Of a stretch of 41,249 nt of DNA, positions 25,892 through 32,161 are shown one piece after another; the first letter of the stretch is position 1, and every line of letters begins with the position of its first letter. This DNA is from Herpetosiphonaceae bacterium (GTDB lineage Bacteria > Chloroflexota > Chloroflexia > Chloroflexales > Herpetosiphonaceae), in assembly GCA_013538855.1 (NCBI GenBank), contig JABXJS010000181.1, positions 1-41,249 of the forward strand. Direction: 5' to 3'. The notes below the pieces were generated by a model, which was not told the origin of the DNA, searched no databases, and saw only the letters and a program-made list of their open reading frames with translations. The translations under genes and the position numbers were made by a program.

Positions 25892-28800
25892 CTACGGTGT
25901 CTGCATAAACGGCAGGTAGAAGCGATAGGTTGGCGCAGGCGCGGCGTTGACGGTCACGATGACGGTATCGGGCGCAGGCGCGGCCAAGCCCAGGCTGTTC
26001 GTCACCGCCAGCGTGAAGGTCAGCACGCTGCTCGTCGCCGGAGCCACGAACGTTGGCTGCACCGCCGTCGCATCGCTCAGCGTCACGGCCGGGCCGCCGC
26101 TCTGCGTCCACTGGTAAGTCAGCGGCAGATTGCCACCGGCATCGCTGCTGGCGCTGCCATCCAGCGTCACCAGCGTCAGCGCGCTCACCGTCTGATCCGG
26201 CCCGGCGTTGGCCTCTGGGGCTAGAGGCGGCGTAGCAGCCGTGCGCAGATCGGTCTCGCGCCAGCCGTTCCAGGGCAGATGCACCCAGCGGCTCGCCGTC
26301 TGGCCGAGCACACTGCCAGCCTGATAGCGCAGGCGCACTCGCCAATGGTAGGGCGTGTCGCTCAGCAGGCCCGTGATCGGCTGCGTAAGCGCGACGCCGG
26401 TGGTCAGCACATCCGTCCATGGGCCAACACCGCTGTGCGCAGCAGGCGCATCAAAAGCACTACCCAGCGGAGCCACCTGCCACTCCAGACGCACTGGCGC
26501 ACGCCCAAGCGGCGTATGTGCCAGAACACGGAGCTGAAATGCGTCCATAGCGGTGGTCAGGCCCAGCGGCGCAATCGGTGTCTGGCCGTTGGGCTTGAGC
26601 TGCTGTGGGCGCACGGCGCGGCCAGCCGCCGCATTGCCGTAGAACAGCTGCACCTGCCCAGCAAAGGTCTGAGCATTGCTATAGCCGACAGCGCTCACGA
26701 GCACATCGCTGTAGCCGTCGCCGTTCACATCGCCGGCTGTGCCCACTGCGGTGCCAAGCACCGCACCAGCCTGTGTGCCAGTTATTGCCCAGCTTGGCGC
26801 GACAGCAAGACCACTCGCTGCGCCAAGATACAGCGTAGCGCGGCCAGCACCGGCCAGCTCGGACGCATACTGCGGCGCGCCGATGATCACATCGCTGTAG
26901 CCATCGCCATTCACATCGCCGACCGTGCCCACGGCAATGCCAAACAAGGCGGCTGACTGATCGCCGTCTATCGTCCAGTTAGCCATGCTCGACAGCCCGC
27001 TGGCTGCGCCATAGAAGACCTGCGCCCGCCCAGCATCGTTGCTCGGCGTATCGTAGCGACCAATGCCGACAATCACGTCGCTGTAGCCGTCGCCGTTCAC
27101 ATCGCCGGCGGTGCCCACCGACCAGCCAAGCTGCGCGTTGGCCTGATCGCTCTCGAACGACCACGCCGCAGTGCTTTCCAAGCCGCTCGTCGAGCCGTAG
27201 TAGAGCAGCACCTGGCCTTCTTCGGCTTGGTCCTGGCTGTAGCCGAGCGCGCCTGCGATAACATCGCTGTAGCCATCACCGTTCACATCACCGGCCGTGC
27301 CCACCGAGGAGCCAAGCTGCGCGCCACTGTGCGCACCAACAGCACTCCAGGTTGGGGTGTTGGCCAGGGTGCCTGCTGTGCCGTAGTAGACCTCAATGCG
27401 CCCGCGCTGGTCCTGATACTCCGGCGCGCCAATGATCACATCGCTGTAGCCGTCGCCATTCACATCGCCCGCCGTCCCCACCGACCAGCCGAGGGCCGTC
27501 AAGCCCTGATCGCTGGTAGCGCTCCAGGCCGGAGTGCTGGCCAGGCCTGCCGCCGAGCCAACGTAGACCTCCACGTGGCCCACAGACTGGCCGCTGAGGT
27601 AGACAGGCGCACCGATGATTACGTCGCTGTAGCCGTCGCCGTTCACATCACCGGCGCTGGCGACGGAGTAGCCAAACTGGGCCATTGGAACGCTGCCGTC
27701 GATGAGCCAGTCGGGCGTGCTGGCGAGGCCGCTGGCTGAGCCGTAGAAGACCAGCACGCGGCCCTCATCGCCTGCGCCAGCATCGTAGAAGGGCGCGCCG
27801 ATGATCACGTCACTGTAGCCGTCGCCGTTCACATCGCCCGCCGTCGCCACCACGGTGCCGAGCTGGGCCGACTGTTGAGCGCTCTCGACGCTCCAGACTG
27901 CCGCCTCCGAGAGCGCTCGCGGGCCGCCAAGATAGACAGCAGCGCGGCCAACCTGCACTTCCGTTGTGCCGTTAGCGAATGGTCTACCGATAATGATATC
28001 GCTGTAGCCATCGCCGTTCACATCGCCCGCCGTACCTATCGACATAGCCGGGCCGATCAGCCGCTCGTCGCTGACGATGGTAGAGATTGGCGCTTCTGCT
28101 ACACCCATGTGCCCACCATAGTAGATTCGGGCAACGCCATACGGCGGTATTGCGGTGACAGGCGCGCCTACAATCACATCGCTGTAGCCATCACCATTCA
28201 CATCGCCTACTGTCCCGATGCTCTGCCCAATTTGGGCATTCGGCTGACTATCGGTCACCGACCAGTCTGGCGTTGTACTCAGGCCAAGCGCACCACCAAA
28301 GTAGATCAATGCTTGGCCTTGATCAGTGGCACCGTCGTGCGGCGCGCCTACAATCACATCGCTGTAGCCGTCGCCGTTCACATCGCCCGCCGTGCTCACA
28401 GCGTAGCCCAACCATGTATCTCCCGTCGCGCCGGTCACGCTCCAGGCTGGCTGAGCCAGCAGTCCCTGTGCCGAGCCATAGTAGACATCCACGTGGCCAG
28501 CTTGGATAGAGCCACCATTATCACGATAGGGCGCGCCGATGATCACGTCGCTGTAGCCGTCGCCGTTCACATCACCGGCGGTGCCCACCGAGTAGCCAAA
28601 GCCATCATTAACATTGAGGCCAACGGCGCTCCAGTCGGGGCTAGCACCGAGGCCCGCTGAGGAGCCATAGTACACGCCGACGCGGCCAGGCTGGGTGGTT
28701 ACGGCTAAGCTGATGATGACATCGCTGTAGCCGTCGCCGTTCACATCACCGGCGGTGCCCACCGAGTAGCCAGCCAAACTCAAGCCCAGCTGATTGCCAA

Positions 28801-29911
28801 GACTCCAGTCTGGCTCTGCTGACAATCCATCAGCAGAGCCATAGTAGATCTCCGCAGCGCCACCAGTCGAGTCAGGACTACCGATCATCGGCGCACCGAT
28901 GATCACATCACTGTAGCCGTCGCCATTCACATCGCCCGCCGTCCCTACGGAGTAGCCAAACTGGCCCATTGGAACGCTGCCGTCGCTGAGCCAGTCGGGC
29001 GTGCTGGCCAGGCCGCTGGCTGAGCCGTAGAAGACCAGCACGCGGCCCTCATCGCCTGCGCCAGCATCGTACAACGGCGCACCGATGATCACATCACTGT
29101 AGCCGTCACCGTTCACATCGCCCGCTGTATCCACCGCAGTGCCAAGCCGCGTATCCTGCTGCGTGCCTTCAATGCTCCAGTCAGGTGTGCTGATCAGCGC
29201 CTCAACCGTCAGCGGGTAGCGCGCTGTAGTCGGTAGCGCAAGGCGCAGGGTGGGACTACTGGCCGCGCCTGCAAGCCGCAGCTGCACAGGCAGCGCCTGC
29301 CCCTCAGCATCATAGATTGAGCGGATAGTATAGTCCAACACATGGACACCAGCGGCGCTGCTCAATGCAATCGACTGGTTGGAACCATTGAGTGTTGGGG
29401 TCAAATTCGTCTTGAGGTTGATTGTCGCAGCCGCTGGATCGGCGGATGGAGCGCGCGACAGGATGAGCTGCTGCGTCAGCCCGCGCTCGCTGTTGCTGTA
29501 GCGCTCGACAGCATCAGAATGCTGGTAGACGATCGAGTGGGCGTCCGCTGCATGCTCTAGCGTAGCTGAACCTGCGCTCTGGAGCGCTATAGCAAGGTGC
29601 CAGGGAGCAGCAACACTAGAAAACATGCGCGGAGTGACCTGCACGCCATAGGCACCAAAGAAGGCGCGTAGATTATTTGCGCGGTTCGGGGCTTGGTAGC
29701 CGCGCTCTGCAACCCATGTGATTGAATACTCTTGATCTACAAGAGCATTTTGCGCCGCCATTAGCCAGTCAGCGGAGGCAACCGCAGAAGCCTGAGCCGT
29801 TGGAGACTGCACAGAACCCGATTCAGTAGCCAGCGCTTGTTTTTGATCAATAAGCGGAAAAAACGCCGTAATGATACATAAAATCATGCAGCGCACCATA
29901 AAACGTTGCAT
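25892..29911 (-). CDS. Giant secreted FG-GAP (integrin-like) repeat protein with YLP C terminus
   Basis: 1339 residues. A signal peptide (RCMILCIITAFFPLI) starts at ATG 29911, with GAGGGGG 8 nt upstream. After a roughly 230-residue N-terminal domain, 14 FG-GAP repeats of about 61 residues follow. Each holds a near-invariant Ca-binding loop GDVNGDGYSD followed by VIIGAP, and an aromatic VFYGSASGL-type strand. Fourteen repeats fit two seven-bladed propellers. A fibronectin-like segment (VRLEWQVAPL; TPYHWRVRLRY) and a PKD/Ig-like domain (NAGPDQTVSALTLVTLDGSA) come next, and the end is YRFYLPFMQTP. Likely an extracellular adhesion or carbohydrate/protein-binding protein. Upstream DNA is A+T-rich; a strong terminator follows. 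Confidence 0.9.
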   Translation of the reverse strand: MQRFMVRCMILCIITAFFPLIDQKQALATESGSVQSPTAQASAVASADWLMAAQNALVDQEYSITWVAERGYQAPNRANNLRAFFGAYGVQVTPRMFSSVAAPWHLAIALQSAGSATLEHAADAHSIVYQHSDAVERYSNSERGLTQQLILSRAPSADPAAATINLKTNLTPTLNGSNQSIALSSAAGVHVLDYTIRSIYDAEGQALPVQLRLAGAASSPTLRLALPTTARYPLTVEALISTPDWSIEGTQQDTRLGTAVDTAGDVNGDGYSDVIIGAPLYDAGAGDEGRVLVFYGSASGLASTPDWLSDGSVPMGQFGYSVGTAGDVNGDGYSDVIIGAPMIGSPDSTGGAAEIYYGSADGLSAEPDWSLGNQLGLSLAGYSVGTAGDVNGDGYSDVIISLAVTTQPGRVGVYYGSSAGLGASPDWSAVGLNVNDGFGYSVGTAGDVNGDGYSDVIIGAPYRDNGGSIQAGHVDVYYGSAQGLLAQPAWSVTGATGDTWLGYAVSTAGDVNGDGYSDVIVGAPHDGATDQGQALIYFGGALGLSTTPDWSVTDSQPNAQIGQSIGTVGDVNGDGYSDVIVGAPVTAIPPYGVARIYYGGHMGVAEAPISTIVSDERLIGPAMSIGTAGDVNGDGYSDIIIGRPFANGTTEVQVGRAAVYLGGPRALSEAAVWSVESAQQSAQLGTVVATAGDVNGDGYSDVIIGAPFYDAGAGDEGRVLVFYGSASGLASTPDWLIDGSVPMAQFGYSVASAGDVNGDGYSDVIIGAPVYLSGQSVGHVEVYVGSAAGLASTPAWSATSDQGLTALGWSVGTAGDVNGDGYSDVIIGAPEYQDQRGRIEVYYGTAGTLANTPTWSAVGAHSGAQLGSSVGTAGDVNGDGYSDVIAGALGYSQDQAEEGQVLLYYGSTSGLESTAAWSFESDQANAQLGWSVGTAGDVNGDGYSDVIVGIGRYDTPSNDAGRAQVFYGAASGLSSMANWTIDGDQSAALFGIAVGTVGDVNGDGYSDVIIGAPQYASELAGAGRATLYLGAASGLAVAPSWAITGTQAGAVLGTAVGTAGDVNGDGYSDVLVSAVGYSNAQTFAGQVQLFYGNAAAGRAVRPQQLKPNGQTPIAPLGLTTAMDAFQLRVLAHTPLGRAPVRLEWQVAPLGSAFDAPAAHSGVGPWTDVLTTGVALTQPITGLLSDTPYHWRVRLRYQAGSVLGQTASRWVHLPWNGWRETDLRTAATPPLAPEANAGPDQTVSALTLVTLDGSASSDAGGNLPLTYQWTQSGGPAVTLSDATAVQPTFVAPATSSVLTFTLAVTNSLGLAAPAPDTVIVTVNAAPAPTYRFYLPFMQTP
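27663..27842 (-). repeat. Near-identical 180-nt copy A, 7 repeats from copy B (28947-29126)
   Basis: This segment and 28947-29126 differ at only a scatter of positions, while neighbouring FG-GAP repeats match well only in the Ca-loop. The offset is 1284 nt, about seven repeat lengths. Both encode GAGDEGRVLVFYGSASGLAS and DGSVPM followed by QFGYSV. It points to duplication of a whole propeller or later gene conversion. Confidence 0.85.
28947..29126 (-). repeat. Near-identical 180-nt copy B, partner of 27663-27842
   Basis: Encodes FG-GAP repeats 1-2, the partner of repeats 8-9 at 27663-27842. Differences are mainly synonymous or single substitutions such as Leu/Phe in AP-x-YDAG and Ser/Ile in DWL-x-DGS. 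Confidence 0.85.
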
Positions 29912-30463
29912 GGAACATTCCCCCTCTTAATCTGAGCCTCGCTGCCCAGGATTAAGCTAAATCTCCGAAAAAATATCAAAATTCTATAAATATGTATACT
30001 ATTACAAATATTTCAAGGCATAGCAAAAATACCCAACAAATTATGAGAGTCTATAGATCGAACAGTGTACAATGATGTGGTTAAAATTAACTCAAAACAG
30101 CACCTCCTTTCTAGGAATAGACCTTTATCCGTGGAAACTCCAGATTCCCAAACGAAACGGACTATGAAAAGATATACGGGCATATTTCAAAAGCGTTACA
30201 TATTAACAGCGTACGTGGTTATAAATTACGTTGATTAGCGCTCTCTAGCGCTGCGCACGCACCAGCATGCAGTGTTCAGGTATGCGGACATCACGATGCT
30301 GTTGAGGCAACTGCGCCCAGCGCTGGCTGGCTGCCACCAGCGTGGCCCAGCTTATGCAGGCTGGCAGCGCTGGCAGCCTGCGCACAGCAGCGGCCTTTGC
30401 GCTGCAGCGCAGATGCGATTAAGCTGTACGCATAGCCGCACGATCATGAAAGGAGTCACACGC
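29912..30463. promoter_or_regulatory. Divergent region: A+T-rich half and structured leader
   Basis: This 552-nt gap separates the divergent FG-GAP and glucosidase genes. About 29950-30240 is strikingly A+T-rich against the surroundings and probably carries the FG-GAP promoter(s). From 30240 to 30420 the sequence is G+C-rich and self-complementary: AGCGCT-CTCT-AGCGCT near 30239-30254, CGCTGG/CCAGCG near 30320-30340, a 20-nt near-palindrome at about 30361-30380, and the perfect palindrome TGCGCTGCAGCGCA (30398-30411). No credible gene is seen; a reading frame through it into the glucosidase lacks a binding site. Confidence 0.45.
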
Positions 30464-32161
30464 ATGCAGAAAACCTGGTGGAAAGAAAGCGTCGTCTATC
30501 AGATTTGGCCGCGCAGCTTCAACGACAGCAACGGCGATGGCGTCGGCGACCTGCGCGGCATCATCGCCAAGCTTGACTATCTCAAGGAGCTAGGCATCGA
30601 TGTCGTCTGGCTCTCGCCGGTCTATCAGTCGCCCAACGACGACATGGGCTACGACATCAGCAACTACCGCGCGATCATGGACGAGTTTGGCACGCTGGAG
30701 GACTGGGAGGCGCTGCTGGAGGGGCTGCACGCCCGCGGCATCCGCCTGATCATGGACCTCGTGGTCAACCACACCTCGGACGAGCACCCTTGGTTTGTCG
30801 AGTCGCGCAAGTCAAAGGACAATCCCTATCGCGACTACTACATCTGGCGGCAGGGGCACGCAGGCCGCGAGCCAAACAACTGGCGCTCGTTCTTCACCGG
30901 CTCCACCTGGGTCTACGATGAGCGCACCGGCGAGTACTTTCTGCATCTCTTCTCCACCCGCCAGCCTGACCTCAACTGGGAAAACCCCAAGGTGCGCCAG
31001 GAGGTCTACGCGATGATGCGCTGGTGGCTCGACAAGGGCGTCGATGGCTTCCGCATGGACGTGATCAACATGATCTCCAAGGTGCCGGGCCTGCCCAACG
31101 CGCCAATTATGTTCAATAGCCGCTATCAGCCCGCCGGGCAGTACTTCCTGCATGGGCCACGGCTGCTGGAGTTCCTCGGCGAGATGCGCGCAGAGGCGCT
31201 TGACACCTACGACACCCTGACGGTTGGCGAGACGCCAGGGGCCACCACCGCGCAGGCTGTCGAGCTGACCAACCCCGACAGCGGGCCGCTCGATATGGTC
31301 TTTCACTTCGAGCACATGGACCTCGACACCGAGCCAGGGCTGCCGCTTGGCGTCAAGGAGTGGGACCTGCTCGAGCTGAAGCAGGTCACGTCGCGCTGGC
31401 AGGAGGACCTGGAGGGCCGCGGCTGGAATAGCCAGTACCTCTCCAACCACGATCAGCCGCGCCAGGTCTCGCGCTTTGGCAACGATCAGCAGTATCGCGT
31501 CGAGTCGGCCAAAATGCTCGCCACCTTCCTGCACATGCTTCAGGGCACGCCCTACATCTATCAGGGCGAGGAGCTGGGCATGACCAACGTCGCCTTTCCC
31601 TCAATCGAGGACTACCGCGACATCGCCACGCGCAACGCCTACCGCGAGCTAACCGAGGAGCACGCGCTTGATCACGAACACGTGATGGCGCGCATCCACC
31701 GCAAGAGCCGCGATAACGCCCGCACGCCGATGCAGTGGGACGCTTCAGAGAACGCAGGGTTCACCAGCGGCACGCCGTGGATCAAGCTCAACCCCAACTA
31801 TCGCGAGATCAACGCCGCGCAAGCGCTGGCCGACCCGAACTCGATTTTTTACTACTATCAAGCGCTAATCAAGCTGCGCAAGGCCAACCCGGTGATCGTC
31901 TACGGCCGCTACGAGCTGCTGCTGCCCGATGATCGCGAGATCTACGCCTTCACGCGCACGCTCGATGACGATCGCCTGCTGGTCATCCTCAACTTCAGCG
32001 CCAGCACGCCCACGTTCGAGCTGCCCGCCGCGCTGCCGGACACCAGCCCCCAGCTGCTGATCGCCAACTACGCGGTTGAGGACAGCGCAAGCATCCGCCA
32101 GATCACGCTGCGGCCCTACGAGGCGCGCGTCTATCGGCTTCATGGCCACGCCAGCCCATAG
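30464..32161 (+). CDS. malL: GH13 alpha-glucosidase (oligo-1,6-glucosidase type)
   Basis: 565 residues from ATG 30464 with AAAGGAG 8 nt upstream. The start WWKESVVYQIWPRSFNDSNG and DGVGDLRGI are classic for the family. The catalytic triad of the (beta/alpha)8 barrel is complete: nucleophile Asp199 in DGFRMDV, acid/base Glu256 in TVGETPG, stabiliser Asp330 in SNHDQPR, plus VVNHTSDEHPWF. Spacing is almost identical to classical oligo-1,6-glucosidases. ARTPMQWDASENAGFT and a C-terminal beta domain complete it. No signal peptide, so it hydrolyses imported isomalto- or malto-oligosaccharides, or related alpha-glucosides, in the cytoplasm. A kinase-fold gene follows 38 nt later. Confidence 0.94.
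   Translation: MQKTWWKESVVYQIWPRSFNDSNGDGVGDLRGIIAKLDYLKELGIDVVWLSPVYQSPNDDMGYDISNYRAIMDEFGTLEDWEALLEGLHARGIRLIMDLVVNHTSDEHPWFVESRKSKDNPYRDYYIWRQGHAGREPNNWRSFFTGSTWVYDERTGEYFLHLFSTRQPDLNWENPKVRQEVYAMMRWWLDKGVDGFRMDVINMISKVPGLPNAPIMFNSRYQPAGQYFLHGPRLLEFLGEMRAEALDTYDTLTVGETPGATTAQAVELTNPDSGPLDMVFHFEHMDLDTEPGLPLGVKEWDLLELKQVTSRWQEDLEGRGWNSQYLSNHDQPRQVSRFGNDQQYRVESAKMLATFLHMLQGTPYIYQGEELGMTNVAFPSIEDYRDIATRNAYRELTEEHALDHEHVMARIHRKSRDNARTPMQWDASENAGFTSGTPWIKLNPNYREINAAQALADPNSIFYYYQALIKLRKANPVIVYGRYELLLPDDREIYAFTRTLDDDRLLVILNFSASTPTFELPAALPDTSPQLLIANYAVEDSASIRQITLRPYEARVYRLHGHASP

Follow-up and report, generated by a model that had tools for sequence, protein, structure and literature searches.

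The window analysed here, a stretch of 41,249 nucleotides from a Herpetosiphonaceae bacterium of the phylum Chloroflexota (contig JABXJS010000181.1), carries on its minus strand a gene for a 1339-residue FG-GAP protein, the features of which are collected in Table 1. The gene stands alone between plus-strand genes, with no operon that includes it suggested among the 10 neighbouring ORFs scanned, and the window contains no tRNA genes. An alpha-amylase family gene (PF00128; window 30272-32161, plus strand) is divergent from the FG-GAP gene, and its listed GTG start probably lies upstream of the true start. Also on the plus strand (26279-28660) there are long ORFs with repeated VAVAVAVHIA-like motifs, which look like an antisense shadow of the Ca-loop repeats rather than genes.

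Table 1. Features of the FG-GAP gene, in window coordinates and in order along the coding strand
Feature	Position	Strand	Basis and remarks
Whole ORF, likely exported FG-GAP protein with a predicted double propeller, 1339 aa	25892..29911	-	ORF translation, loop count, Pfam
Putative Sec signal peptide, about aa 1-28	29828..29911	-	Translation judged by eye
N-terminal module, predicted all-beta, about aa 40-234, without Pfam model	29210..29794	-	Common to most stalk-bearing relatives
Predicted propeller 1, repeats 1-7, aa 241-665	27917..29191	-	Loop count and structure model
Tract core copy A, repeats 1-2	28947..29071	-	Matches copy B at 122/125 nt; extends to 28890-29147 in the longest scored segment
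Tract core copy B, repeats 8-9	27663..27787	-	Longest scored segment 27606-27863
Predicted propeller 2, repeats 8-14, aa 665-1095	26627..27919	-	Loop count and structure model
C-terminal stalk domain, without Pfam model, serves as family marker	26240..26623	-	Profile search
PKD domain (K319L-like, PF22352)	25952..26206	-	Pfam scan

The repeat array is regular. The Ca loop DVNGDGYSD is present in 14 exact copies, one in each repeat and spaced by 58-63 aa, and a Pfam scan finds 14 stretches of FG-GAP (PF01839, E 3.5e-108) with the signature in every blade; the exact count of 14 given in the initial annotation is therefore upheld. Judged from sequence, all 14 repeats carry a putative Ca-binding loop of the DxDxDG type. 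The PKD domain is placed by the Pfam scan near the C-terminus, downstream of the FG-GAP stretches. The same scan of the ORF gave no match to the thigh, calf or integrin alpha transmembrane/tail families, inspection of the translation by eye revealed no long hydrophobic C-terminal or transmembrane stretch, and an NCBIfam scan returned weak or off-target matches only. The gene product is likely exported, and its propellers most likely serve as a rigid head, stabilised by Ca, for ligand binding or adhesion, a role suggested by the fold and the likely export. By eye, the tails of four Chloroflexota FG-GAP proteins (window 25895-25921, L043, L044 and L045) appear similar: FYLPFMQTP, IFLPVILR, VYLPFVVRE and LYIPLLLK. 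A genome-wide C-terminal tail is unsupported by the one narrow DNA pattern used, which had 1 match in 21 genomes versus 1 in the reversed control.

Structure modelling points to two propellers in one chain. An AlphaFold2 model of aa 40-1230, built with 19 relatives, has a mean pLDDT of 84.7 and a pTM of 0.79; a second model of aa 40-668, cut by us at the propeller seam, has a pLDDT of 84.7 and a pTM of 0.76. Model positions 626-1056 (aa 665-1095, repeats 8-14) align with whole integrin-alpha propellers at Z scores of about 39-41 and an rmsd of 2.3-2.7 Å over 375-391 residues, and positions 202-626 (aa 241-665, repeats 1-7) do so at Z scores of about 39-41 and an rmsd of 2.5-2.9 Å. Overall, 368-391 residues of either half are superposed at 2.3-2.9 Å, a comparison to be read with the caveat that integrins belong to the AlphaFold2 training data; the structural matches cover the propellers and not the N-terminal module. 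According to these models, in which a closed seven-bladed fold is found for each half, the protein is two tandem complete seven-bladed propellers of the integrin-alpha type, repeats 1-7 and repeats 8-14. They agree with the two seven-bladed propellers proposed in the initial annotation, and repeats 1/8 and 2/9 would thus be equivalent blades.

Relatives of the protein are distant. A direct whole-protein look-up among genome contigs and viral contigs found none, while a whole-protein search gave matches, most of them partial, in 11 of 60 genomes and 29 of 400 phylum genomes, the bacterium's own genome counted. A stalk profile matches strongly in 4 of the 158 genomes from the class and in 12 of the 149 from the phylum to which the acidobacterial relative L050 belongs; other relatives belong to the Anaerolineaceae (L046), the Chloroflexaceae (L049) and the Chloroflexales (L048). 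L048 and L049 are close orthologues of each other. The best relatives are about 40% identical to the window protein, and no close orthologue of the window gene was found among the 60 relatives, 400 phylum genomes and 158 class genomes (own included).

The number of repeats in these relatives is nearly constant. Twenty-six stalk-bearing frames were examined, and 23, including the window gene, were countable; L107 and L116 are truncated where their contigs end, and L115, with 13 visible repeats, contains a run of unknown residues. The stalk matches L079, L093 and L098 were left aside as short frames or near contig ends. Fourteen repeats lie in one frame in 21 of the 23 countable genes, and in 22 if L118 is included (21 of the 22 relatives, one of them frameshift-split). 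By our reading, L118 (L118:2640-5460) has 10 repeats in one frame and 4 upstream in another, the result of a frameshift or a sequencing error. The only countable exception, L102 (G505:C157), has 11 repeats and a stalk with an insertion. A stricter loop pattern finds 12 to 14 loops in 20 genes, with the missing ones falling in doubled or tripled gaps. At least two phyla contain genes with 14 repeats. Among stalkless FG-GAP proteins (18 stretches, 16 frames with blade matches), 8 frames have 7 repeats, and the remaining frames have 3, 5, 5, 6, 6, 6, 11 and 11, weak repeats probably having been missed. In this sample a doubled propeller accompanies the stalk. None of the stalkless FG-GAP proteins tested has the N-terminal module; neither this module nor the stalk has a Pfam model, though both are common to most family members.

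Self-comparison of the window gene yields a sole outstanding diagonal, at an offset of 1284 nt or seven repeats. Its core (gene nt 841-965) is identical between repeats 1-2 and repeats 8-9 at all but three positions, and looser scoring extends the tract to 217 of 236 and then 233 of 258 identical nt. Outside it, on both sides, identity drops to the level of the other repeats, and the core of copy A begins just past the Ca loop of repeat 1 and stops just short of the loop of repeat 2. The tract scores 183 against a maximum of 123 among 300 synonymous-codon shuffles on the same diagonal, and 40 shuffles scored across many in-frame diagonals do not exceed 123 either; the next best real diagonal scores 55. 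This confirms the near-identity at 1284 nt reported in the initial annotation, whose estimate of about 180 nt falls between the 125-nt core and the 236- and 258-nt segments, and bears out its remark that other repeat pairs are much less alike. A donor elsewhere in the genome was considered, and no source was found in the 6.3 Mb draft, where 40 of 90 candidates were scored and a single 22-nt match lay outside the gene. Short repeats are known to cause assembly errors, and the draft consists of 285 contigs. As an account of the tract, such an error is nevertheless extremely improbable: the longest exact match on the diagonal is just 62 nt, 25 of 258 positions distinguish the copies, and collapse would reduce the repeat number, yet the number equals that of the relatives.

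Does the tract date from the origin of the second propeller? The initial annotation had offered propeller-scale duplication as one possible cause, and the offset of exactly seven repeats, together with the modelled halves as separate seven-bladed propellers, would suit a recent duplication of a whole propeller that was followed by rapid divergence of all but one segment. The other blades argue strongly against it. Whereas whole-repeat amino-acid identity is 79% for the pair 1/8 and 74% for 2/9, the remaining five pairs at i/i+7 share 55, 57, 50, 47 and 37%, a mean of 49% compared with 51% over all pairs except 1/8 and 2/9 (permutation p 0.64 for amino acids and 0.59 for DNA). As these five pairs are at the level of random pairs, the tract very probably does not derive from a recent propeller duplication; and since relatives at about 40% identity, another phylum included, nearly all have 14 repeats already, the doubling of the propeller is old and the tract local and recent. 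Blade similarity across proteins does peak weakly at offset 7 (19 proteins, L048 left out; permutation p 0.0017, or 0.0054 without the window protein), which lends the duplication some further support, but this signal is very small and owed mostly to 7/14 and 1/8, the repeats at the seams, where it fits an old doubling or a shared structural constraint. We consider a recent duplication very unlikely. The initial annotation had named as counting against its reading that repeats seven apart are no more alike in general together with a match explained by assembly collapse or error; the first is what the comparison shows, while the second is contradicted by the differences between the copies and the conserved repeat number.

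The synonymous positions are informative in another respect. Among codons for the same residue, 2 of 38 differ in the core as opposed to 14 of 39 in the two flanks combined, and over all 91 loop pairs the corresponding figure is 33.6%. Selection or functional constraint could in principle hold a blade segment alike at repeats 1-2 and 8-9, positions that are structurally equivalent in the two modelled propellers. It would hardly keep synonymous codons near-identical too, however; moreover, two of the three core mismatches change a residue, and relatives show no such likeness of these blades, the best blade pair of the 18 other proteins for which one could be named lying at offsets other than 7. 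Constraint is accordingly given next to no weight as the cause.

Similar exchanges seem to have left traces in part of the family. Of 20 family genes, 3 contain tracts of at least 95% identity over 100 nt: the window gene (offset 7) and 2 of the 19 relatives compared, L105 (offsets 3 and 4) and L112 (offset 1). In 10 of the 20 genes, the best repeated segment outscores five synonymous shuffles of that gene, and the other 10 have no repeated DNA segment at the listing score of 60; exchange is therefore not seen throughout the family. At the protein level, 74 of 279 blades have their nearest neighbour within their own protein (4.7% expected by chance), and 23 have it at the corresponding position of another protein. 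The L112 and L105 arrays are strongly homogenised at the DNA level over most of their length, more so than the window gene. That offset 7 plays a special part in exchange is unsupported, the tracts of the other genes lying at offsets 1, 3 and 4; by geometry alone, a random pair falls at offset 7 with a probability of 7/91 = 0.077.

Taken together, the sharply bounded, near-identical tract, flanks no more alike than background and a repeat number that has stayed at 14, as in the relatives, form the pattern looked for in gene conversion. In our judgement the segment in this double-propeller gene most probably stems from a single event resembling gene conversion, recent and within the gene, between blades 1-2 and 8-9. 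The initial annotation had put forward a recent conversion between equivalent blades as its second possibility, and the sharp tract, the contrast in codon differences and the dissimilarity of the other i/i+7 pairs speak for it. Mechanistically, the similar Ca-loop DNA of every repeat may supply the homology for pairing, as suggested by the ends of the tract just after and just before Ca loops, and the variable DNA that separates the loop of repeat 1 from that of repeat 2 would then have been copied to, or from, its counterpart in repeats 8-9. The same pattern would result if a duplication and a deletion had together replaced the segment. Unequal exchange, in which a two-repeat segment is duplicated and another lost, has a precedent in the blade amplification that alters propeller proteins, as described in the accessible part of PMC9218822. 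It is an unlikely source of the present tract: it would take two events that together leave repeat number and register unchanged, the tract spans only the stretch between two Ca loops and not whole repeats, and just one of the 23 countable genes, with 11 repeats, departs from 14.

Tandem integrin-type propellers in bacteria are already published, and the explanation of the tract is mostly ordinary repeat evolution. The portion of Chouhan et al. 2011 available to us (PMC3192720) describes bacterial integrin-type propellers of seven repeats, some with two tandem sets (14), and like the window protein they have FG-GAP repeats of about 60 residues, a Ca motif in each and seven repeats per propeller. 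Whereas that portion describes their presence, the family studied here adds a defined N-terminal module and stalk, a repeat number that hardly varies across two phyla, and an exchange tract at the DNA level. Compared with metazoan integrin alpha, a whole propeller of which (PDB 7ceb, 4wk0, 1jv2 and others) superposes on each half of our model, the window protein is predicted to have two propellers per chain and carries the Ca loop in all 14 repeats; it lacks thigh and calf matches in the Pfam scan, and by eye a transmembrane stretch. Pereira and Lupas 2022 (PMC9218822), in the part accessible, report ongoing amplification from single blades and a continuum of blade numbers. Their repetitive beta-propellers resemble the window family in the ongoing change of sequence at blade level inside a propeller, but differ from it in that 22 of the 23 countable genes here keep 14. 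Concerted evolution is documented in the accessible parts of work on the WD-repeat propellers of Podospora (PMC1805685, PMC2873952), the repeats of which are shaped by inter-repeat recombination, as is proposed for the window gene; they belong, in contrast, to a fungal non-self recognition system, and one title speaks of repeat instability. Further context is given by a paper on VCBS, seen in part (PMC8023676). We found no paper on a near-fixed count of 14 with this stalk in the open-licence PMC literature, which does not prove that none exists.

As a case of sequence exchange between matching blades of two propellers, the tract itself is small and clean. More interesting is a by-product of the analysis: the count of repeats is nearly fixed at 14 despite the exchange of blades, and deserves a wider survey. 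One tentative reading, which we put forward as possible rather than probable, is that the N-terminal module, 14 blades and stalk define a copy-number-locked family, in which selection for two closed seven-bladed rings keeps the count at 14 while conversion, with the Ca loops as anchors, redistributes the variable segments among blades. If true, the surface loops would diversify with the architecture unchanged. The near-fixed count itself makes it testable what sets the number of repeats in an ordinary environmental protein, by the addition or removal of a blade.
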